Shown here: one piece after another, positions 26,726-35,039 of the stretch
Layout: the number at the start of each line of letters is the position of its first letter
How positions within the stretch are numbered: the first letter of the stretch is position 1
From: Thermoflexales bacterium
GTDB taxonomy: Bacteria; Chloroflexota; Anaerolineae; J036; Brachytrichaceae
Reading direction: 5' to 3'
NCBI GenBank assembly: GCA_019694215.1
Contig: JAIBCK010000028.1
Span: 1 to 36,472, forward strand
Length of the DNA: 36,472 nucleotides
Program-made: the position numbers and the translations under genes
Notes under the pieces: model-generated
What the model saw: the letters and a program-made list of their open reading frames with translations, nothing else
The model's database searches: none
Told to the model about the DNA's origin: nothing

Positions 26726-27898
26726 TCAGGCCCGGGGGCGGGCAGCGCGCAGCCGCGCCAGCGTCGCGGGAGCGAGCAGTTTGCCAAACAGCACGACTGA
26801 CATCGCAATTCGCTGCAGGAGGCTGGCGCGCTCGACGTATTCGGTCTCAGCGTTGTGCGCATTGCCCCCCACCGGGCCCATGCCATCAATGGTCGGGACG
26901 ATCTGCGACAGCGCCGAGGCATCCGAGGCACCGCCCGTCGCCACGTCATTGATGCTGAAGCCAAGCTCTTGCGCGGCGTCGCGGGCCAGCTCGGCCATCA
27001 GCGCCACGGCCGGCGTCTTGACCATGGGCGGGAAGCTGAAGCCGCCGCTGAGCGTGTTGACCGCGCCCGGGATCGTCGTCCGCGCGGTGATGGCCTTCAG
27101 CGCAGCTTCGACGGCGCGCACCCCCTCGAGGTCGGTGGCGCGGCAGTCGATGCCGATGGAGGCCGAATCCGGCACAACGTTCACTGCCGTTCCGCCGCGC
27201 ACGACGCTCGGCGTCACCGTGACGCCCGGGCGCAGGCCGTTGAGTGAGGCGATGTCTACGATGCGGTGGGCGAGCTCAACGGTGGCGTTCACGCCCTTCT
27301 CCGGCGCGACGCCGGCATGGGTGGAGAAGCCCTTGACTGCGAGCGTGAAGTCGCCGGAGGCCTTGCGGGCCGAGACGATGTCGCCGCTCGCACGGGCGGG
27401 TTCATACACCAGTGCGGCATCGACACCGGCGGCGCGCTCGGCGGACAGCGGGCGCGACGCGGGCGAGCCATATTCCTCCTCGCTGTTGAAGAAGAAGGTG
27501 ATCGACTCGAAGCGCGAGCGGTCTGCGGCGAAGGCGCGCATCGCATAGAGGCCGGTGAGCAAACCGCCCTTCATGTCGGCGATGCCCGGCGCGTAGATGC
27601 GGCCGGCCTCCTCACGCCAGGGATGGGTGGCGCAGACGCCCGTCTCGTAGACCGTGTCGAGGTGGCCCATCAGCATCAGGCGGCCCTGCCCGCTCCCGCG
27701 CGCGACGGCGGTGTAGCAATCGCCGAACTCGGGCATGGCATGGCGCACCACGTCAAAACCCATGCTGCGGGCGCGGGCGGCCGCGAGCGCGCCGACGGCG
27801 TCGACGCCGGCCTTGTTGCGGGTGCCGCAGTCGATGGCCGTCCAGGCGCGCAGGTCGGCGAGCACGTCGTCGAGGGTGGAAGGCGGGAGGTCGATCAT
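26726..27898 (-). CDS. M20 family metallopeptidase (glutamate carboxypeptidase-like)
   Basis: A 390-residue zinc peptidase of the M20 family. Metal-binding and catalytic motifs are in order: MGHLDTVYE (His and Asp), IADMKGG (bridging Asp), FNSEEEYGS (catalytic Glu and zinc Glu), a dimerisation domain at about 175-290, and the last His in GGNAHNAETEYVE. The set resembles glutamate carboxypeptidase / ArgE-DapE relatives that remove a C-terminal Glu or hydrolyse N-acyl amino acids. There is no signal peptide, so it is cytoplasmic. The ATG at 27898 follows AGGAG and overlaps the stop of the transporter gene (ATGA), which suggests that the transporter imports its substrate. The exact substrate cannot be read. 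Confidence 0.92.
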   Translation of the reverse strand: MIDLPPSTLDDVLADLRAWTAIDCGTRNKAGVDAVGALAAARARSMGFDVVRHAMPEFGDCYTAVARGSGQGRLMLMGHLDTVYETGVCATHPWREEAGRIYAPGIADMKGGLLTGLYAMRAFAADRSRFESITFFFNSEEEYGSPASRPLSAERAAGVDAALVYEPARASGDIVSARKASGDFTLAVKGFSTHAGVAPEKGVNATVELAHRIVDIASLNGLRPGVTVTPSVVRGGTAVNVVPDSASIGIDCRATDLEGVRAVEAALKAITARTTIPGAVNTLSGGFSFPPMVKTPAVALMAELARDAAQELGFSINDVATGGASDASALSQIVPTIDGMGPVGGNAHNAETEYVERASLLQRIAMSVVLFGKLLAPATLARLRAARPRA

Positions 27899-29178
27899 CG
27901 TTCTCCTGTGGGCGCGGGGGCGCGCAGCCTCCGCGCAAAAAACAGCGCCGCGAGAAAGGCCACGGCACAGATGGCAAACAGGGCACCATAGCCGCTCTGG
28001 TCGCCGATCGCACCCACCGCCGAGGTGGACAGCATCAGCAGGCCCAGCACGGTGTTGGTCAGCCCGAAGTAGCGCACGCGGTCATCGGCCGGCACGATCT
28101 CCATGAGCATCGGACTGCCGACAACGCCGATGCCGGTCGTCGCCATTGTGCTGAGCGAGAACGGCACGAGGAGCAGCAGCAATGCGAGCTGCGGGTCGGG
28201 ACGGGCCAGCGCGAGCGCGGCAACGATCAGTGTGGCCGCGAGCCCGGACAACGCAATGAACCCCCCGGCGCGGGGTGCGCCGAGGCGGTCGACGATCCGC
28301 CCCCACATCAGGTTGGTAAGCAGACCCACCACTATCGTGAGCACGGCGATGGCGCCGATGTAGCCGTCATCGGCCCCCAGACCCCGACGGGCGTAGACGG
28401 TGATGAAGGGCACTGACGCATTGCCCAGGAAGAGCAGCCCGCGCAGCACGAGAAAGGCTCGGTAACGTGAATTCGTCCGAAGGATTGTGCCGGCATGATT
28501 CACCATGCTGCGCAGCGATGTCTGCGTCGCAACGGGCGGATCCGGCGGCTCGATGCTGCGACCAAACATCGCGTAGGCAACCAGAAAGCTGATTGCCGCA
28601 AGCCCGAAGATGAGGGCATAGTTGCGCGGGAAAGTCAGCCCCATCCCACCCGACAGGATAAGGGCCAGCATCGCGCTGCCGAAGATGCCCAGGATGCTGC
28701 CTGTGAACTGGCGCATGCCAAACAGATGGCCGCGATGGCGGGCCGGGATGATCTTGGCCGTAATGGTCTGCCAGGGCAGGCCGGCCATGCCAGCTGAGAG
28801 CGCGACAAAGGAAATGCATACCGAGTAGCCAATCAACAGCGCACCCTTGTCGGTGATGAGCAGCGCCATTGCGACGATGAGCGCCCACGCCACAACGCGC
28901 AGCATCGTGGTTCGGCGATACAGCACGATTTTGAGCGGTGCCCGTTCGACGGCCGGTGCAATGAAAAACTGTGGCAGAAACCAGCCACCATCCTTGATCT
29001 GCACCAGCAACGCCACCAGCACGTTCGACGAGGTGAGCTGGCTGACGAACGAAGTCATCACCACGCTGTTGGTAAAGGCGTCACCCAGCGCGGAGAGGGC
29101 GCCGTTTCCGACGTTGAGGGCAAAGTTGCGGCGAAAGACCCTGTCGCCGTAGGGGATGATGGCGTTCCACAAGCGCAT
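27895..29178 (-). CDS. Major facilitator superfamily transporter
   Basis: About 427 residues with twelve predicted membrane helices. The start at 29178 (MRLWNAIIPYGDRVFRRNF) gives a short cytoplasmic N-terminus; a TTG further upstream at 29238 is less likely. An MFS-type loop is present (ARHRGHLFGMRQFTGSILG), and the second half repeats the pattern with MWGRIVDRLGAPRAGG. The substrate is unknown. Translational coupling to the M20 peptidase gene (4-base overlap) suggests uptake of a peptide or N-acyl amino acid, or export of an inhibitor. A GATACC on the minus strand at 29192-29197 may be the -10 box; there is no clear Shine-Dalgarno. Confidence 0.88.
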   Translation of the reverse strand: MRLWNAIIPYGDRVFRRNFALNVGNGALSALGDAFTNSVVMTSFVSQLTSSNVLVALLVQIKDGGWFLPQFFIAPAVERAPLKIVLYRRTTMLRVVAWALIVAMALLITDKGALLIGYSVCISFVALSAGMAGLPWQTITAKIIPARHRGHLFGMRQFTGSILGIFGSAMLALILSGGMGLTFPRNYALIFGLAAISFLVAYAMFGRSIEPPDPPVATQTSLRSMVNHAGTILRTNSRYRAFLVLRGLLFLGNASVPFITVYARRGLGADDGYIGAIAVLTIVVGLLTNLMWGRIVDRLGAPRAGGFIALSGLAATLIVAALALARPDPQLALLLLLVPFSLSTMATTGIGVVGSPMLMEIVPADDRVRYFGLTNTVLGLLMLSTSAVGAIGDQSGYGALFAICAVAFLAALFFARRLRAPAPTGER

Positions 29179-29283
29179 GGCAGGGCGCGAGGGTATCACA
29201 GGCAAGTGCCACCGAGCGCTGGCCGCGATCCCCTGCAAGGGCGGCGCGGGTCGCCTGAAAGCCTGCGTCGCGCCAGGCCGTGG

Positions 29284-29289
29284 TAGACT
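29284..29289 (+). promoter_or_regulatory. Candidate -10 box (TAGACT) of the aromatic operon
   Basis: TAGACT ends 13 bases before the leader peptide ATG at 29303, so the transcript would start a few bases before it. No convincing -35 box. The position fits an attenuator leader of about 165 bases. Confidence 0.35.
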
Positions 29290-29302
29290 CGCGGCCGTCG
29301 CA

Positions 29303-29398
29303 ATGCACGGGGCTTTCTCGTTTACGGGCTATTGGTATCACGTTTCCTTTGGCAACGCCAAAGGGAGCTTACCTGGCCACGCGAGGTCCTCGCGATAA
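29303..29398 (+). CDS. Leader peptide of the aromatic amino acid operon (Tyr-Trp-Tyr)
   Basis: A 31-codon reading frame, ATG 29303 to TAA 29396-29398, beginning MHGAFSFTGYWYHVSF. Seven of residues 5-16 are aromatic or His: Phe5, Phe7, Tyr10, Trp11, Tyr12, His13, Phe16. The consecutive Tyr-Trp-Tyr codons (29330-29338) stand just before a series of competing RNA hairpins that end in a terminator, upstream of DAHP synthase genes. This is the layout of leader peptides in ribosome-mediated attenuation: shortage of charged Tyr- or Trp-tRNA would stall the ribosome there. The peptide itself probably has no function. There is no Shine-Dalgarno, so it may be read from a leaderless or near-leaderless start. 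The reading frame could be chance, but its placement argues against that. Confidence 0.72.
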   Translation: MHGAFSFTGYWYHVSFGNAKGSLPGHARSSR

Positions 29399-29460
29399 GC
29401 TGAGCGAAACAGCAAGTCAGACGGAGGGCGTGGAGCAGTAAGCTCCACGCCCTCTTTTTT
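29345..29460 (+). promoter_or_regulatory. Transcription attenuator upstream of tandem DAHP synthases
   Basis: Several helices can be drawn from the sequence. (1) A local hairpin, CCTTTGGC 29346-29353 with GCCAAAGG 29357-29364. (2) An antiterminator of 15 bp: GGAGCTTAC 29364-29372 with GTAAGCTCC 29438-29446, enclosing CCACGC 29377-29382 with GCGTGG 29428-29433, across a 4x4 internal loop. (3) An anti-antiterminator: AGCTTA 29366-29371 with TAAGCT 29396-29401, which includes the leader peptide stop codon and encloses the hairpin at 29380-29394. (4) The terminator 29424-29454. Structures 2 and 4 cannot coexist, nor can 2 and 3. A ribosome stalled at Tyr-Trp-Tyr would leave 29364-29382 free for the antiterminator. 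Completing the peptide would favour 3 and 4. Confidence 0.75.
29424..29460 (+). terminator. Attenuator terminator before the aromatic operon
   Basis: A perfect 13-bp stem, 29424-29436 paired with 29442-29454, with a 5-base loop and six T at 29455-29460. It stands between the leader peptide and the first DAHP synthase gene, 28 bases before that ATG. A terminator in this position makes sense only as a regulated one. Confidence 0.93.
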
Positions 29461-29488
29461 GTTGGAAGGCTGCAAAGGAGAAACAGAC

Positions 29489-30520
29489 ATGGTCATCATC
29501 ATGAAGCCCGGCGCAAGCGGGGCCGAGATCGCCGGTGTGATCGCCCGCATCGAGGCGCATCAACTCACCCCGCATCCGATCTATGGCGAGGAACGCACTG
29601 TGATCGCCGTGGTCGGCAATGACCGACCCGTCGACCGCACCACCTTTGAGACCCTGGCGGGCGTGGACTTCATCCAGGCCATCCTCAAACCGTACAAGCT
29701 GGCCAGCCGCGAGTTCCGCAAGGACGACTCGGCCGTGACGCTGATCGAGCGCAACGGCAAGGCCGTGACGGTGGGCGGAAATGGACACGTCACGCTGATC
29801 GCGGGGCCATGCGCGTGCGAGAGCCGCGAGCAGGTGCTCGAAACCGCGCTCATGGTCAAGGAAGCCGGCGCGCAGGGCTTCCGCGGTGGCGCATTCAAGC
29901 CGCGCACATCGCCCTATTCATTTCAGGGGCATGGCGAGAAGGCGCTGCAGTGGATGGCCGAGGCGCGCGAGGTGACGGGGCTGGCCATCGTGACCGAGGT
30001 CATGTCGCCCGAGCAGGTGCCGATGGTGGCCGAATACGCCAACGTGATGCAGATCGGTGCGCGCAACATGCAGAACTTCGCGCTGCTCAACGCGGTCGGC
30101 ATGAGCATGAAGCCAGTGCTGCTCAAGCGCGGGATGAGTGCAACGATGGAGGAGCTGCTGATGGCCGCCGAGTACATCCTGAGCCACGGCAACTACAACG
30201 TCATGCTGTGCGAGCGCGGGATCCGCACCTTCGAGCAGTACACGCGCAACACGACTGACATCAATGCGATCCCGGCGCTCAAGGCGTTGAGCCATCTCCC
30301 CGTTGTGCTCGACCCCAGCCACGCCACGGGCAAGAGTGAGTATGTCATTGCCATTGCGCGGGCTGGCATCGCCGCCGGCGCCGATGGGCTGATCGTCGAA
30401 GTGCACCCCGAGCCCAGCAAGGCCATGTCGGATGGCGCGCAAACCCTGACCCCCAAGGCGTTCGAATCAATGGTCAGGCAATGCAAGCGCATCGCCGCCG
30501 CGATGGACAAGGAGATCTAG
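29489..30520 (+). CDS. aroF: DAHP synthase, type I-beta, first copy
   Basis: A 343-residue enzyme that condenses phosphoenolpyruvate and erythrose 4-phosphate to DAHP, the entry to the shikimate pathway. Residues 1-75 form the ferredoxin-like regulatory domain of the Thermotoga type ([32 protein letters not shown]), where aromatic amino acids may bind. The barrel domain has the metal ligands and substrate motifs: IAGPCACES (Cys), [52 protein letters not shown] (His) and [13 protein letters not shown]. The ATG at 29489 follows AAAGGAG by 8 bases. It is the first gene after the attenuator and is followed, 3 bases on, by a paralogue. The symbol is by function. Confidence 0.95.
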
Positions 30521-30523
30521 GCC

Positions 30524-31555
30524 ATGGTCATCATCATGAAAGCTGGCGCCAGCGCCCAGCAAATCGCCGGCGTCGTCAATCGGATCGAATCAGACGGCAT
30601 GCGCGCGCACCTCTCGCAGGGGGAAGAACGCACGATCATCGGACTGGTCGGCGACGAGCGGCCCGTTGACGCCGAGCAGATCGAGGTGTTGGACGGCGTC
30701 GAGCGCGTGCTGCCGATTCTGCGCCCGTTCAAGCTCGCCAGCCGCGACTTCAAGCGCGAGAACACCGTCATCACGATCAAGGCCGGCGGCCAAACCTTCG
30801 ATGTCGGCGGCAAGGGTGTGGTGATGATGGCCGGCCCGTGCGCGGCCGAGAGCCGGGAGCAGGTTCTGGAGAGCGCCCGCCTCGTCCGCGAGGCCGGCGC
30901 AAATGCGCTGCGGGCCGGCGCGTTCAAACCGCGCTCATCGCCCTACTCGTTTCAGGGGCATGGCGAGAAGGCGCTGCAGTGGATGGCCGAGGCGCGCGAG
31001 CGATACGGGCTGGCCCTGGTGACCGAGGTCATGGCCCCCGAGCAGGTGCTGCTGGTGTCGAGCTACGCCGACATTCTGCAGGTCGGCGCGCGCAACATGC
31101 AGAACTTCCCCCTGCTGCACGCCGTGGGCTACAGCATGAAGCCGGTGCTGCTCAAGCGCGGAATGAGCGCGACGATGGAGGAGCTGCTTATGGCCGCCGA
31201 GTACATCATGAGCCACGGCAACTACAACGTCATGCTGTGCGAGCGCGGCATTCGCACCTTCGAAAAGTACACGCGCAACACCACCGACATCAACGCCATC
31301 CCCGTTCTGCAGGAACTGACGCACCTGCCCGTGATCGTCGATCCCAGCCACGGCACCGGCAAATGGGAGTATGTTCCCGCCGTTGCGCGCGGCGCCGTTG
31401 CGGCGGGGGCGGACGGGCTGATCATCGAGGTGCACCCCGAGCCCAGCAAGGCGCTTTCGGATGGCGCGCAGTCGCTGACCCCGGCGAAGTATCAGGCCCT
31501 CGTCGCTCAGCTTCGGGCTGTCGCGGAAGCCGTTGGGCGCAAGCTGCTGGTGTGA
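30524..31555 (+). CDS. aroF: DAHP synthase, type I-beta, second copy
   Basis: A 343-residue paralogue of the gene just upstream, equal in length and starting 3 bases after its stop, with AAGGAG 9 bases before the ATG. The barrel is close to identical in long stretches; for example a 51-bp segment at 30950-31000 is the same as 29921-29971. All catalytic motifs are present ([51 protein letters not shown]). The N-terminal regulatory domain differs more ([15 protein letters not shown] versus [15 protein letters not shown]), so the two enzymes may answer to different end products. This suggests tandem duplication followed by divergence of the sensing domain. Both copies look active. Confidence 0.95.
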
Positions 31556-32055
31556 TGCGCACACGACCCGCGACCCTCGGGGATCTGGCCGACCTGCGTC
31601 GGCTGCATGCGCTTCTGCAGACGCACCATGCCGCCGCTGATCCACACTGGTTCAAGTCACCGACCGATGGCGAGACAGGACCGAACACGTTTGCCGAGCT
31701 GATGGCGCGCCGGGACAACCACTTCATCCTGGCCGAAGCCGGCGAGCCCCCGCGCCCGATCGGCTATGCCTGGGTTGAAGTGGTCGATCAGGCCGAGACA
31801 CCGCTGCGGCGCCCTCACCGCAGTGCCTATCTCCATCACCTGATCGTCGAGCCCGCCGCACGGCGAGGCGGTGCCGGCGGGGCGCTGATGGCGGCATTTC
31901 GGGACGTGGGGGCACGCGCCGGCGCGGATCGGTTGATCTTGAACGTGTGGGAGTTCAACGCAGCCGCGCGCAATTTCTTCCGGGCGCAGGGCTTTGAGCC
32001 ACTGCAGACCCGGCTGTGGGCGCCGCTCGCCGCCGCGGACGGCTTGATATCCTGA
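31555..32055 (+). CDS. GNAT family N-acetyltransferase
   Basis: A 166-residue single-domain acetyltransferase that would transfer an acetyl group from acetyl-CoA to an amine. The order fits the family: N-terminal [18 protein letters not shown], a strand with GYAWVEVVD, the core LHHLIVEPAARRGGAGGALM with the R/Q-x-x-G-x-G/A acetyl-CoA loop, and the C-terminal LILNVWEFNAAARNFFRAQGF. The ATG overlaps the stop of the second DAHP synthase by one base (TGATG), so it is translated with the operon. The substrate is unknown; its place within an aromatic amino acid operon may be incidental. Confidence 0.88.
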   Translation: MRTRPATLGDLADLRRLHALLQTHHAAADPHWFKSPTDGETGPNTFAELMARRDNHFILAEAGEPPRPIGYAWVEVVDQAETPLRRPHRSAYLHHLIVEPAARRGGAGGALMAAFRDVGARAGADRLILNVWEFNAAARNFFRAQGFEPLQTRLWAPLAAADGLIS

Positions 32056-32059
32056 GGCC

Positions 32060-32932
32060 ATGGTGACACTTCCCCTGCCCAATCGCATCTGCATCGTTGG
32101 CCTCGGCGTCATGGGCGCGTCGCTGGCGCTGGCCCTGCGCGAGCGCGGCTATACGGGGCATCTGACCGGCGTCTCACGCACGCTGGCCACCCGCGACACG
32201 GCGCTCGGCCGGCGCATGGTCGACGCCGCCACCATCGACCTCGCCGAGGGCGTGCGCGCCGCCGAGCTGGTGGTGCTGGCCACGCCGGTGCGGCTGCTGA
32301 TCGAGCAGATCGGGCAGTGCGCAACGTCGTGCGCGGATGAGGCGATCATCACCGATATGGGAAGCACGAAGGCGGCCATCGTCACCGCGATGGACGCGCT
32401 GCCGGAACGGCTGTGCGCGGTGGGCGGGCATCCGATGTGCGGCAAGGAGACCGCCGGCATCGACGCCGCAGACGCGGGGCTGTATGTCGGCGCGCCCTGG
32501 ATCCTCACCCGCAGCGCCCGCAGCACGGACCCTGCCTATGCGAAAGTCCGTGCCCTGGCCGAGTTTGTCGGGGCGCGGCCGCGCGACCTGGCGGTCGCCA
32601 CCCACGACCCGCTGCTGGCCTATGCCAGCCACCTGCCCTACGCGCTGTCCGTCGCGCTCGTCACAGCCACCGCCGGCTTTGGCCAGGCGAACCCGGCCGT
32701 GTGGGAGATCATGGCCGGCGGGTTTCGCGACACCAGCCGCGTCGCCGCCAGTGACGTGACGATGTGGACGGACATCCTTCTGACCAACCCCGGGCCGGTG
32801 TCCGACGCGCTCGATGATGCACAACGCGCCATCGACACCCTGCGTGGGCTGATCGAGCGGCAGGATGCCGCCGGCCTGGCCGACTTTCTGGCGCGCGCCG
32901 CCAGCGCACGCCGAAACCGTTATTCACGATGA
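32060..32932 (+). CDS. tyrA: Prephenate/arogenate dehydrogenase
   Basis: A 290-residue dehydrogenase of tyrosine synthesis, oxidising and decarboxylating prephenate (to 4-hydroxyphenylpyruvate) or arogenate (to tyrosine). The N-terminal Rossmann fold has the dinucleotide motif VGLGVMGAS (residues 13-21) and VVLATPV. The active site has TDMGSTK, the conserved GGHPMCGKETAG (His) and the later THDPLLAYASHLPYALS. The C-terminal helical domain contains GGFRDTSRVAASDVTMWTD. There is no fused chorismate mutase or ACT domain. It begins 4 bases after the acetyltransferase stop and overlaps aroA by 4 bases. Cofactor and substrate preference cannot be settled by eye. Confidence 0.94.
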   Translation: MVTLPLPNRICIVGLGVMGASLALALRERGYTGHLTGVSRTLATRDTALGRRMVDAATIDLAEGVRAAELVVLATPVRLLIEQIGQCATSCADEAIITDMGSTKAAIVTAMDALPERLCAVGGHPMCGKETAGIDAADAGLYVGAPWILTRSARSTDPAYAKVRALAEFVGARPRDLAVATHDPLLAYASHLPYALSVALVTATAGFGQANPAVWEIMAGGFRDTSRVAASDVTMWTDILLTNPGPVSDALDDAQRAIDTLRGLIERQDAAGLADFLARAASARRNRYSR

Positions 32933-34206
32933 TCAAGACATTGACCGCGCCAAAGCGCCTGGGGGGTCGCCTCCGCCCGCCCAGCGATCGCAGCATCACC
33001 GTCCGCGCGGCGCTGCTCGGCGCCGTCGCCGAGGGCGAGACCTGCGTCCTGCAAGCGCTCGACTCGGACGACGCGCGGGCGGCCATTGACTGCGCGCGCG
33101 GGCTGGGCGCCGCGATCTCGTATGACGGCACGCTGCGCGTGCACGGGCGCGGGTTGCGCGGCCTGCGCGCGCCGGACGAGCCCCTGCACTGCGGCTCCTC
33201 GGGGACCACCATGCGCCTGCTGGCCGGGCTCGCCTCCGGGCTCGGCATCGCGTGCGTCATCGACGGCAGCCCACAGCTGCGCAAGCGCCCGATGCGGCGC
33301 ATCAGCGAACCGCTCTCGGCGATGGGGGCCGCGATCACCGACACGGACGGCTGCGCGCCCCTGCGCCTCGCCCCTGCTCGCTTGCGCGGCATCGACTACA
33401 CCCTCCCTGTCGCCAGCGCCCAGGTCAAGTCGGCCGTTTTGTTGGCGGGGCTGAACGCGGCTGGCACGACCGTGACACGCGAGCCTGCCCCCACCCGCGA
33501 CCATACCGAGCGCATGCTGCGCGCGATGGGCGCAGATGCACGCACAACGGGCCCGGTCACCATCCTGACGCCACCCGACCGGTTGACCGGCATCACGCTG
33601 ACCGCGCCGGCCGACTTTTCCTCCGCGGCGTTCTTCCTAGCGGCGGCTTGCCTGCACCCGGATGCCGACCTCGACTTGCACGACGTCGGGGTCAACCCGA
33701 CCCGGACGGGTTTTCTGGACGCCCTGCGCGCGATGGGCGCAAGCGTGGACGCGAGCGCCGAACGCGAAGAAGGCGGTGAGCCCCTCGCCGCGTTGCGCGC
33801 GCGGAGCGCCGCGCTGCACGGCATCGAAGTCGCCGGCGACCTCACCGCCCGCATGATCGACGAGCTGCCGATTTTCGCCGTCGTCGCCACGCAGGCGTCT
33901 GGCACAACGGTCGTTCACGACGCACAGGAGCTGCGGGTCAAGGAAAGCAATCGCCTCGAAGGCCTGGTCGCCCAGCTGCGTCGGCTCGGGGCGCGGATCG
34001 AGGCGACGGCCGACGGCTTCATCATCGAGGGCCCCACCCCGCTGGCCGGCGCCGATGTGGACGGGCTCGACGACCACCGCATGGCCATGTCGCTGGCGGT
34101 CGCGGCCCTCGTCGCGCACGGCGAGACGCGCCTGCATGGCGCGGAGTGCGTGAGAAAGACGTACCCCGGGTTCTTTGACGACCTGGCGCGCCTGTCGGAG
34201 GTGTGA
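32929..34206 (+). CDS. aroA: EPSP synthase (3-phosphoshikimate 1-carboxyvinyltransferase)
   Basis: A 425-residue enzyme joining phosphoenolpyruvate to shikimate 3-phosphate. The two-domain fold is shown by SSGTTMRLLAGL, PQLRKRPMRRISEPL, VASAQVKSAVLLAGL, RDHTERMLRAMGA, IDELPIFAVVA, AQELRVKESNRL and GLDDHRMAMSLAVAAL. The N-terminal signature, usually P-G-x-K-S, reads PPSDRSITVRAA: the Lys equivalent to Lys22 of E. coli is Arg21, while Ser22 and Arg26 are kept. In the glyphosate-site loop the Asn of N-S/A-G-T is Ser. All other active-site residues look present, including Asp in IDELPI and Arg in RVKESNR, so an active enzyme is likely. It overlaps tyrA (ATGA) and aroE. Confidence 0.95.
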   Translation: MIKTLTAPKRLGGRLRPPSDRSITVRAALLGAVAEGETCVLQALDSDDARAAIDCARGLGAAISYDGTLRVHGRGLRGLRAPDEPLHCGSSGTTMRLLAGLASGLGIACVIDGSPQLRKRPMRRISEPLSAMGAAITDTDGCAPLRLAPARLRGIDYTLPVASAQVKSAVLLAGLNAAGTTVTREPAPTRDHTERMLRAMGADARTTGPVTILTPPDRLTGITLTAPADFSSAAFFLAAACLHPDADLDLHDVGVNPTRTGFLDALRAMGASVDASAEREEGGEPLAALRARSAALHGIEVAGDLTARMIDELPIFAVVATQASGTTVVHDAQELRVKESNRLEGLVAQLRRLGARIEATADGFIIEGPTPLAGADVDGLDDHRMAMSLAVAALVAHGETRLHGAECVRKTYPGFFDDLARLSEV

Positions 34207-35039
34207 TGCGGGTCGGGCTATTCGGCTTTCCGGTCGCGCACTCGGCCTCGCCGCGCATGCACAACGCCGCCTTCGCCGCGCTCGGGCTGGCGGGCTGGCA
34301 GTATGAGCTGTGGGAGACGGCGCCCGATCAACTCGTCCGACGCATCGCCGCCTTGCGCGCTGATCCTTCCATCGCAGGGGCCAACGTCACGGTCCCCCAC
34401 AAGATCGAGGTGATGGCCGCGCTGGACGGCGTGACCGAGCGCGCCCGCGCCATCGGCGCCGTCAACACGCTCTACCGGGAGGGGGACCGGCTGCTCGGCG
34501 ACAACACCGACAGCGCGGGCTTCATTGCCGACCTGGCCGCGCACGGTGTGACGGTCGATGCGCACACCCAGGCGCTGGTGCTTGGCGCAGGCGGCGCGGC
34601 GCGGGCGGTCGTGCATGGCCTGCTGTCGCAAGGTGCCCGGGTGCGCATCTTCAACCGCGCTGCGGGCCGCGCGGTCACGTTGGCGGCTGATTTCAAAACG
34701 TTGGGCGATGTGCGCGCCGTCGATGATCTTTCGGCCGCGGGCGACACGCCCGCAACGCTGATCGTCAATGCCACTTCGGCCGGCATGAGCCCGAACGAAG
34801 ACGGCACCCCATGGCCGCCGGGCCTTCGCTTCCCCGGCGGCGCGACGGTCTACGACCTGGTCTACAAGCCGGCCACGACGCGCTTGATGCGCGAGGCCGC
34901 CGCTGCTGGTGCACGCATCATCGGCGGAATCGGCATGCTCGCCGAGCAGGGTGCGCAGGCCTTTGCACGCTGGACGGGCAAGCCCGCCGCGGAGGCATCG
35001 GTTATCATGCGCCGCACTCTGGGAGCAACCCCACAATGA
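34206..35039 (+). CDS. aroE: Shikimate dehydrogenase
   Basis: A 277-residue NADPH-dependent enzyme that reduces 3-dehydroshikimate to shikimate. Substrate-site motifs are complete: GFPVAHSASPRMHNAAF, NVTVPHK (catalytic Lys), GAVNT and DNTDSAGF (catalytic Asp). The dinucleotide motif is VLGAGGAARAV, followed by FNRAAGRA and NATSAGM. The ending GIGMLAEQGAQAFARWTG is typical. The ATG at 34206 overlaps the aroA stop by one base; a GTG at 34203 is also in frame but less likely. It overlaps the start of pepC at its end. Confidence 0.96.
   Translation: MRVGLFGFPVAHSASPRMHNAAFAALGLAGWQYELWETAPDQLVRRIAALRADPSIAGANVTVPHKIEVMAALDGVTERARAIGAVNTLYREGDRLLGDNTDSAGFIADLAAHGVTVDAHTQALVLGAGGAARAVVHGLLSQGARVRIFNRAAGRAVTLAADFKTLGDVRAVDDLSAAGDTPATLIVNATSAGMSPNEDGTPWPPGLRFPGGATVYDLVYKPATTRLMREAAAAGARIIGGIGMLAEQGAQAFARWTGKPAAEASVIMRRTLGATPQ

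Follow-up and report, generated by a model that had tools for sequence, protein, structure and literature searches.

The segment from position 29284 to 29488 of the window, by which we mean the whole analysed stretch of 36,472 nucleotides, very likely represents a classical ribosome-mediated transcription attenuator of an operon for the biosynthesis of aromatic amino acids. The aromatic leader very probably acts as an on/off switch, which allows transcription to continue only when Phe, Tyr or Trp is in short supply. Attenuation of this operon by a ribosome reading aromatic codons had been proposed in an earlier note on this DNA and is now strongly supported by the gene context, the conservation of the elements, the covariation of the helices and the mutual exclusion predicted by folding models; every feature coordinate in that note proved to be correct. 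The Chloroflexota lineage guessed there was also right, since the closest named relatives, whose first DAHP synthase shares 70-81% identity with that of the window, mostly belong to the Thermoflexales or Candidatus Roseilinea of the Anaerolineae.

The genes and RNA elements of the region are compiled in Table 1. The next gene after aroE codes for a C1-type peptidase. Because the MFS gene located upstream is divergent, the hairpin at the end of the leader cannot belong to it and must terminate the aromatic operon prematurely.

Table 1. Elements of the aromatic leader and neighbouring genes, with positions in the window.
Feature	Position	Strand	Remarks
MFS gene, upstream, divergent	27895-29238	minus	
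-10-like hexamer TAGACT	29284-29289	+	13 nt 5' of leader ATG
Leader peptide ORF	29303-29398	+	31 codons, MHGAFSFTGYWYHVSFGNAKGSLPGHARSSR; orthologous leaders found
Regulatory codons Y10 W11 Y12 H13 V14 S15 F16	29330-29350	+	ribosome-position folding
1:2 protector hairpin	29342-29368	+	12 continuous pairs, 29342-29353/29357-29368
Antiterminator segment 2	29364-29382	+	parts 29364-29372 and 29377-29382
Intrinsic terminator (3:4)	29424-29460	+	13-bp stem, 5-nt loop, six T
Antiterminator segment 3	29428-29446	+	parts 29428-29433 and 29438-29446
DAHP synthase, B. subtilis type, first gene of operon	29489-30520	+	NCBIfam, Pfam
Second DAHP synthase, same B. subtilis type	30524-31555	+	NCBIfam, Pfam
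GNAT acetyltransferase	31552-32055	+	start GTG 31552 or ATG 31555
Prephenate dehydrogenase (tyrA)	32060-32932	+	NCBIfam, Pfam
EPSP synthase (aroA)	32929-34206	+	NCBIfam, Pfam
Shikimate dehydrogenase (aroE)	34203-35039	+	NCBIfam, Pfam

The leader ORF of the window extends from an ATG at 29303 to a TAA stop codon at 29396-29398 and contains the consecutive Tyr-Trp-Tyr codons at 29330-29338, exactly as described before. The four further aromatic or His codons mentioned in the earlier note are found nearby as F5, F7, H13 and F16, of which F5 and F7 are located 5' of the regulatory stretch, but the actual count is five, with H2 to be added. The window and 69 Anaerolineae leaders contain short ORFs with clustered codons for the product amino acids, as judged from their putative translation; every one of the 69 has at least five F, Y or W within eight codons. 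The leader of a relative from the same genus (L053) reads MRKAFSFTAYWYYSYFSKAKGSLPGHARTSR, and those from other genera read MQRANFSYYFWYGYFSKAKG, MRFFAYFSYFWFNYF, MASVRFFGYFWFSYFAVGKGSLL and MACHRFYGYFWFYGYF. Each of these relatives' leaders is followed by a strong terminator and is located 5' of the first gene of the operon, which differs among the relatives and codes for DAHP synthase, a second type of DAHP synthase or the chorismate mutase AroH. The Phe codons of the Anaerolineae leaders are TTT in 81% of the cases vs. 36% in eleven genes of the window, and this preference could be caused by RNA pairing constraints or by decoding speed.

As predicted from promoter-like sequence, the transcript probably starts about 7 nt (5-9 nt) 5' of the leader ATG. 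The -35 region of the window is poor, and its promoter scores 6 of 12 consensus bases, while most relatives of the window's family contain the motif TTGACA-17 bp-TAnnnT at the same place with 10-11 of 12 consensus bases, positioned 12-16 nt 5' of the leader ATG. The short distance between the predicted start and the ATG leaves no room for a Shine-Dalgarno sequence, and none is present in the window leader. Because of this and the poor -35 region, the translation rate of the leader is uncertain. With the ORF beginning only some 5-9 nt past the predicted start, the regulatory peptide may be translated from a leaderless or almost leaderless mRNA. The leaders of the Chloroflexia type have longer 5' ends.

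The alignments support three competing helices, namely the terminator, the 1:2 hairpin and the antiterminator. The intrinsic terminator follows the leader ORF, ahead of the first structural gene, and was found as previously stated, with 13 perfect pairs between the arms 29424-29436/29442-29454 and a T-run at 29455-29460; it covaries, as seen from changes on both sides of several pairs. The antiterminator consists of 9 bp between 29364-29372 and 29438-29446 and 6 bp between 29377-29382 and 29428-29433. Its segment 3 lies in the 5' arm, the loop and the beginning of the 3' arm of the terminator, and covariation and permutation tests argue that one structure excludes the other. The earlier claim of a 15-bp competing pairing which destroys the terminator was thus confirmed: in 49 non-redundant leaders, the duplex energies with the own partners sum up to -1282, compared to -1005 +/- 23 with permuted partners, and none of 20,000 permutations was as good, which was also the case (0 of 20,000) for 37 leaders from outside the window's family, with the leaders taken as independent after k-mer filtering and the alignments and permutations being not fully independent of phylogeny. 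Individually, 19 of 30 leaders beat their shuffles in the duplex test. Because the antiterminator core is almost invariant inside the window's family, covariation is modest there, but the helix has been rebuilt with other sequences across the class, e.g., as TTTGTCGCCATCC/GGATGGCGACAAA in L071 or GCCGATTGC/GCAATCGGC in L167. The duplex and partner-permutation tests were used instead of a definition by minimum free energy, which overlooked the antiterminator in several leaders because the terminator or the 1:2 hairpin competes with it.

The 1:2 protector hairpin competes with the antiterminator, as its 3' arm overlaps the first part of segment 2. It was recovered unprompted by RNAalifold, and 95.6% of its cells are paired, with 13 double changes vs. 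4.3 +/- 2.3 in shuffles (0 of 500 shuffles as high). The pairing also passes the partner-permutation test over the whole class (z -4.3). The alignment of orthologous leaders, which had been proposed as a check, therefore revealed covariation of both the antiterminator and the 1:2 helix. We also examined whether terminators are kept without the reading frame or covariation is missing among the relatives, and the outcome favours attenuation.

To include the position of the ribosome, the window transcript was folded with a ribosome footprint at each codon, using the RNA up to 29447, where the terminator is still incomplete. In this model, the 1:2 hairpin shows a probability of 0.99 and the antiterminator one of 0 without a ribosome. 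With the A-site at codons 10-16 (Y W Y H V S F), the probability of the antiterminator amounts to 0.86-0.95, and it drops to 0.07 at codon 17 (G17) and to 0 from codon 18 to the stop, placing the end of the permissive stretch exactly past the last aromatic codon, F16. Once the ribosome is close to the stop codon, the 1:2 hairpin forms again behind it with a probability of 0.99. The folding model thus predicts that stalling at the regulatory codons, not at the stop, favours the antiterminator, and it displays the mutual exclusion of the helices; folding with a tool that scores alternative structures had been suggested in the earlier note. In all 69 leaders of the class, the aromatic codons favour the antiterminator more strongly than the other codons do (mean probability 0.50 vs. 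0.22), and the mean falls to 0.013 over the last eight positions; because any codon located 5' of segment 2 is favoured by geometry whatever it encodes, these values alone are no proof of aromatic specificity, and they indicate that the aromatic cluster sits where the stalling geometry favours the antiterminator. When the full-length transcript was folded, the terminator was more stable in every ribosome state, and the switch must therefore be kinetic, as in trp.

We envisage the switch to operate as follows. RNA polymerase would start just 5' of the leader ATG, as inferred from the promoter-like sequence, with a ribosome trailing it through the leader ORF. A scarcity of charged tRNA for Tyr, Trp or Phe would make the ribosome stall on codons 10-16 and cover positions 29342-29353, leaving segment 2 free to pair with segment 3 before the 3' arm of the terminator is made. 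With the antiterminator formed, the polymerase would read on into the operon. A ribosome that does not stall would first mask segment 2 and then, near the stop codon, let the 1:2 hairpin close behind it; with the antiterminator blocked in this way, the terminator would end transcription. In the case of no translation at all, the 1:2 hairpin would form as well and the operon would be off. In vivo, the leader would respond to the aromatic aminoacyl-tRNAs, with Phe, Tyr and Trp presumably playing equal roles.

In the earlier note, the release of the terminator had been assigned to a third pairing, 29366-29371/29396-29401, which includes the leader stop codon. This 6-bp complementarity does exist in the window, and the closest relative L053 contains a similar match, GCTTA/TAAGC, but it is not conserved. 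With 61.5% of its cells paired, it equals shuffled columns, its own partners are no better than permuted ones over the class (z +2.2, i.e., in the wrong direction), and its predicted probability is at most 0.02 in every ribosome state. Alignments and folding models point to 29342-29353/29357-29368 as the conserved protector, not to the pairing around the stop codon. Another candidate, a long-range pairing of the aromatic codons with the region after the stop, did not pass the class-wide test either (z -0.55, 5813 of 20,000 permutations as good) and is at most a feature of some lineages. Leaders L041-L046, L056 and L060 show complementarity of 10-13 bp between the aromatic codons (e.g., CTACTTTTGGTT) and a segment at or after the stop (AACCAAAAGTAG), which perhaps serves as a local extra protector.

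The codon specificity of sensing is deduced from the content and position of the codons. The aromatic clusters of the 69 Anaerolineae leaders contain Tyr in all cases, Phe in 67 and Trp in 36, and the permissive codons of the window include Y, W, Y and F. The initial proposal of Tyr and Trp sensing was too narrow because Phe and Tyr dominate and F16 is permissive as well. Sensing of the aromatic family as a whole is the best reading of these codons, and it fits the placement of the leader before a DAHP synthase gene. A switch relying on Tyr and Trp only and using the third pairing at the stop codon as anti-antiterminator is very unlikely: although Tyr-Trp-Tyr is kept in L053 together with the complementarity mentioned above, Phe codons match Tyr codons in frequency, 33 of the 69 clusters lack Trp, and the pairing shows neither conservation nor a noticeable folding probability.

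We consider a nascent-peptide arrest similar to that of TnaC to be slightly less likely still. In such a system, free aromatic amino acids would bind and the peptide itself would stall the ribosome, instead of a shortage of charged tRNA. The leader peptide is indeed rich in aromatic residues, and a C-terminal GKGSLL is conserved in some genera, though its codons double as segment 2 of the antiterminator. However, the peptide is almost wholly changed between families, whereas its aromatic content and the RNA helices are kept. Stretches such as GYFWFSYF, WSFFFYYY and CGYYYYYYY illustrate that the peptide varies freely while remaining aromatic, as predicted for codon sensing, and this freedom argues against a peptide-specific arrest. 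Moreover, the controlled genes are biosynthetic, so their induction by high concentrations of aromatic amino acids would be counterproductive.

For a search by structure, 16 leaders from the window's family were turned into a covariance model, which was then applied to 298 genomes of the class. We found aroH, DAHP synthase genes or pheA within 1.5 kb downstream of 58 of the 61 readable full-length matches, and 39 of the 42 full-length matches outside the training family also have one of these genes nearby; the downstream genes were called by short motifs, with aroH Pfam-checked on one member (PF07736). The remaining three full-length matches lack aromatic genes, and one of them is located 5' of hisS. 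A model match in L189 (genome G232, contig C178) is situated some 230 nt upstream of a hisS-like gene and contains no aromatic peptide; it could represent a different leader or a chance match to a terminator. In several genomes belonging to other families, the PF07736 matches from an independent search are located directly behind the leader matches of a second structure model.

We further surveyed 60 aroH genes across the phylum for upstream regions coding for at least five F, Y or W within eight codons and containing a strong hairpin. A strict filter for the T-run under-counted the leaders, and a hairpin test with a reverse-strand control was used instead. An aromatic ORF with a strong hairpin was present before 27 of the 60 aroH genes, compared to none (0 of 60) when the reverse strands of these regions were examined. 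Within the Anaerolineae, 14 of 15 aroH genes are preceded by such a leader, as are all of those from three further families (8/8, 4/4 and 1/1), which are probably Chloroflexia, and 0 of 32 in the remaining Chloroflexota families sampled. The genomes of the relatives are based on MAGs. In the genome containing the window, the structure model identified no second aromatic leader, and none was found before pheA, trpE or aroB.

Searches against Rfam yielded no family matches above the gathering threshold for the window or five relatives, and at a relaxed threshold the window leader only gave chance matches to unrelated sRNA, miRNA and antisense families. The covariance model for T-box leaders (RF00230) did not match the leader at either the gathering or the relaxed threshold. 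The trpE gene of the same genome (L285:475-756, contig C30) is preceded by a T-box-like leader with a terminator; this leader matches RF00230 with 57.1 bits (E 4.9e-12), which does not reach the gathering score of 93, and it looks likely that the specifier is UGG for Trp. Within one cell, the Trp branch thus appears to be under a T-box, and the common and Tyr pathway under a leader peptide. With both types of leaders, the outcome at an intrinsic terminator depends on tRNA charging, but a T-box binds the tRNA directly and needs no leader ORF, whereas the aromatic leader contains one. Least probable of all is a constitutive 5' terminator with a fortuitous ORF or a different RNA regulator (T-box, riboswitch or RNA-binding protein), for which one may invoke the strength of the terminator and the T-box-like leader of trpE, but which is contradicted by the lack of Rfam matches at the leader, by the fact that dozens of genomes combine the aromatic ORF with the antiterminator covariation and the gene context, and by the empty reverse strands.

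The attenuator with its mixed aromatic codons resembles several known systems. Leaders of the ilvGMEDA type carry codons for several end products of one branched pathway and are likewise multivalent, but they deal with branched-chain instead of aromatic amino acids and occur in another phylum. The gammaproteobacterial pheA and pheST leaders code for Phe-rich peptides and serve a single amino acid and a single branch; they follow the same switching logic but are unrelated to the Chloroflexota leader in sequence and lineage. The trp leader of E. coli and its relatives, the classical attenuator (see PMC1183508), is similar in its ORF with tandem codons, its 1:2, 2:3 and 3:4 helices and the kinetic race between ribosome and polymerase. 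In contrast to its Trp codons, the Chloroflexota leader carries mixed Phe/Tyr/Trp codons, and it acts on both the entry to the shikimate pathway and its trunk and shows no detectable sequence relation (no Rfam match). A distance of about 24 nt separates its stop codon from the first arm of segment 2, so the 1:2 hairpin would reclose behind the terminating ribosome.

The nearest precedent is the uORFC-13-1 motif of Acholeplasma aroF, which likewise consists of a uORF with Phe codon(s) and a terminator before a DAHP synthase gene (PMC8632094). This motif is only known from Acholeplasma and unassigned environmental sequences and contains codons for Phe only (PMC8632094); compared with its published description, the Chloroflexota leaders are set apart by a different structure, their F/Y/W clusters, their defined antiterminator and their association with aroH, pheA or DAHP synthase operons. 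A genome-wide study of attenuators from 2010 described leader-peptide systems only for Proteobacteria and Actinobacteria, in addition to its own case of Bacillus hisS (PMC2965389), and a survey of Actinobacteria from 2005 contained no Phe or Tyr attenuators (PMC1262725). A search of a survey of RNA regulons including five Chloroflexi revealed no passage on leader peptides (PMC3766115). We found no earlier report on Chloroflexota in the papers searched; the survey of Lopatovskaya et al. 2010 could hold cases from Chloroflexi. While the mechanism is classical, the RNA family, the lineage and the multi-aromatic sensing appear to be new.

Two loci from other phyla came up as well. The acidobacterial palsa_134 (L121:4469-4720) contains a leader, MGLFTYCLGYAYRFYFTERTGETRADELRN, and a terminator before genes for chorismate mutase-like, prephenate dehydratase-like and DAHP synthase proteins, which is possibly an aromatic attenuator in another phylum; it is absent from the other Acidobacteria loci retrieved. 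In a member of the Oscillospiraceae (L131:5600-6010), a short ORF containing VYFGFGWARF and a terminator are located directly before a DAHP synthase gene and behind a good TTGACA/TATAAT promoter, suggesting a possible aromatic leader in Firmicutes.

We regard it as rather likely that the Chloroflexota leaders represent an ancient multivalent attenuator which senses the scarcest of Phe, Tyr and Trp and governs both entry and trunk of aromatic biosynthesis in Anaerolineae and (probably) Chloroflexia, with its logic kept while every helix sequence was replaced, and which coexists with a T-box for the Trp branch. If this is true, leader-peptide attenuation outside of Proteobacteria and Actinobacteria either arose independently or reaches much wider. 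Among the members sampled from two Chloroflexota classes, the second of which is probably Chloroflexia, nearly all have the switch before their aromatic genes, and it is testable because the leader-bearing members apparently include culturable organisms. The large natural alignment, in which the antiterminator helices have been rebuilt many times, may be used in studies on the evolution of attenuators, and the poorly studied Chloroflexota would gain a regulatory logic for their aromatic biosynthesis.
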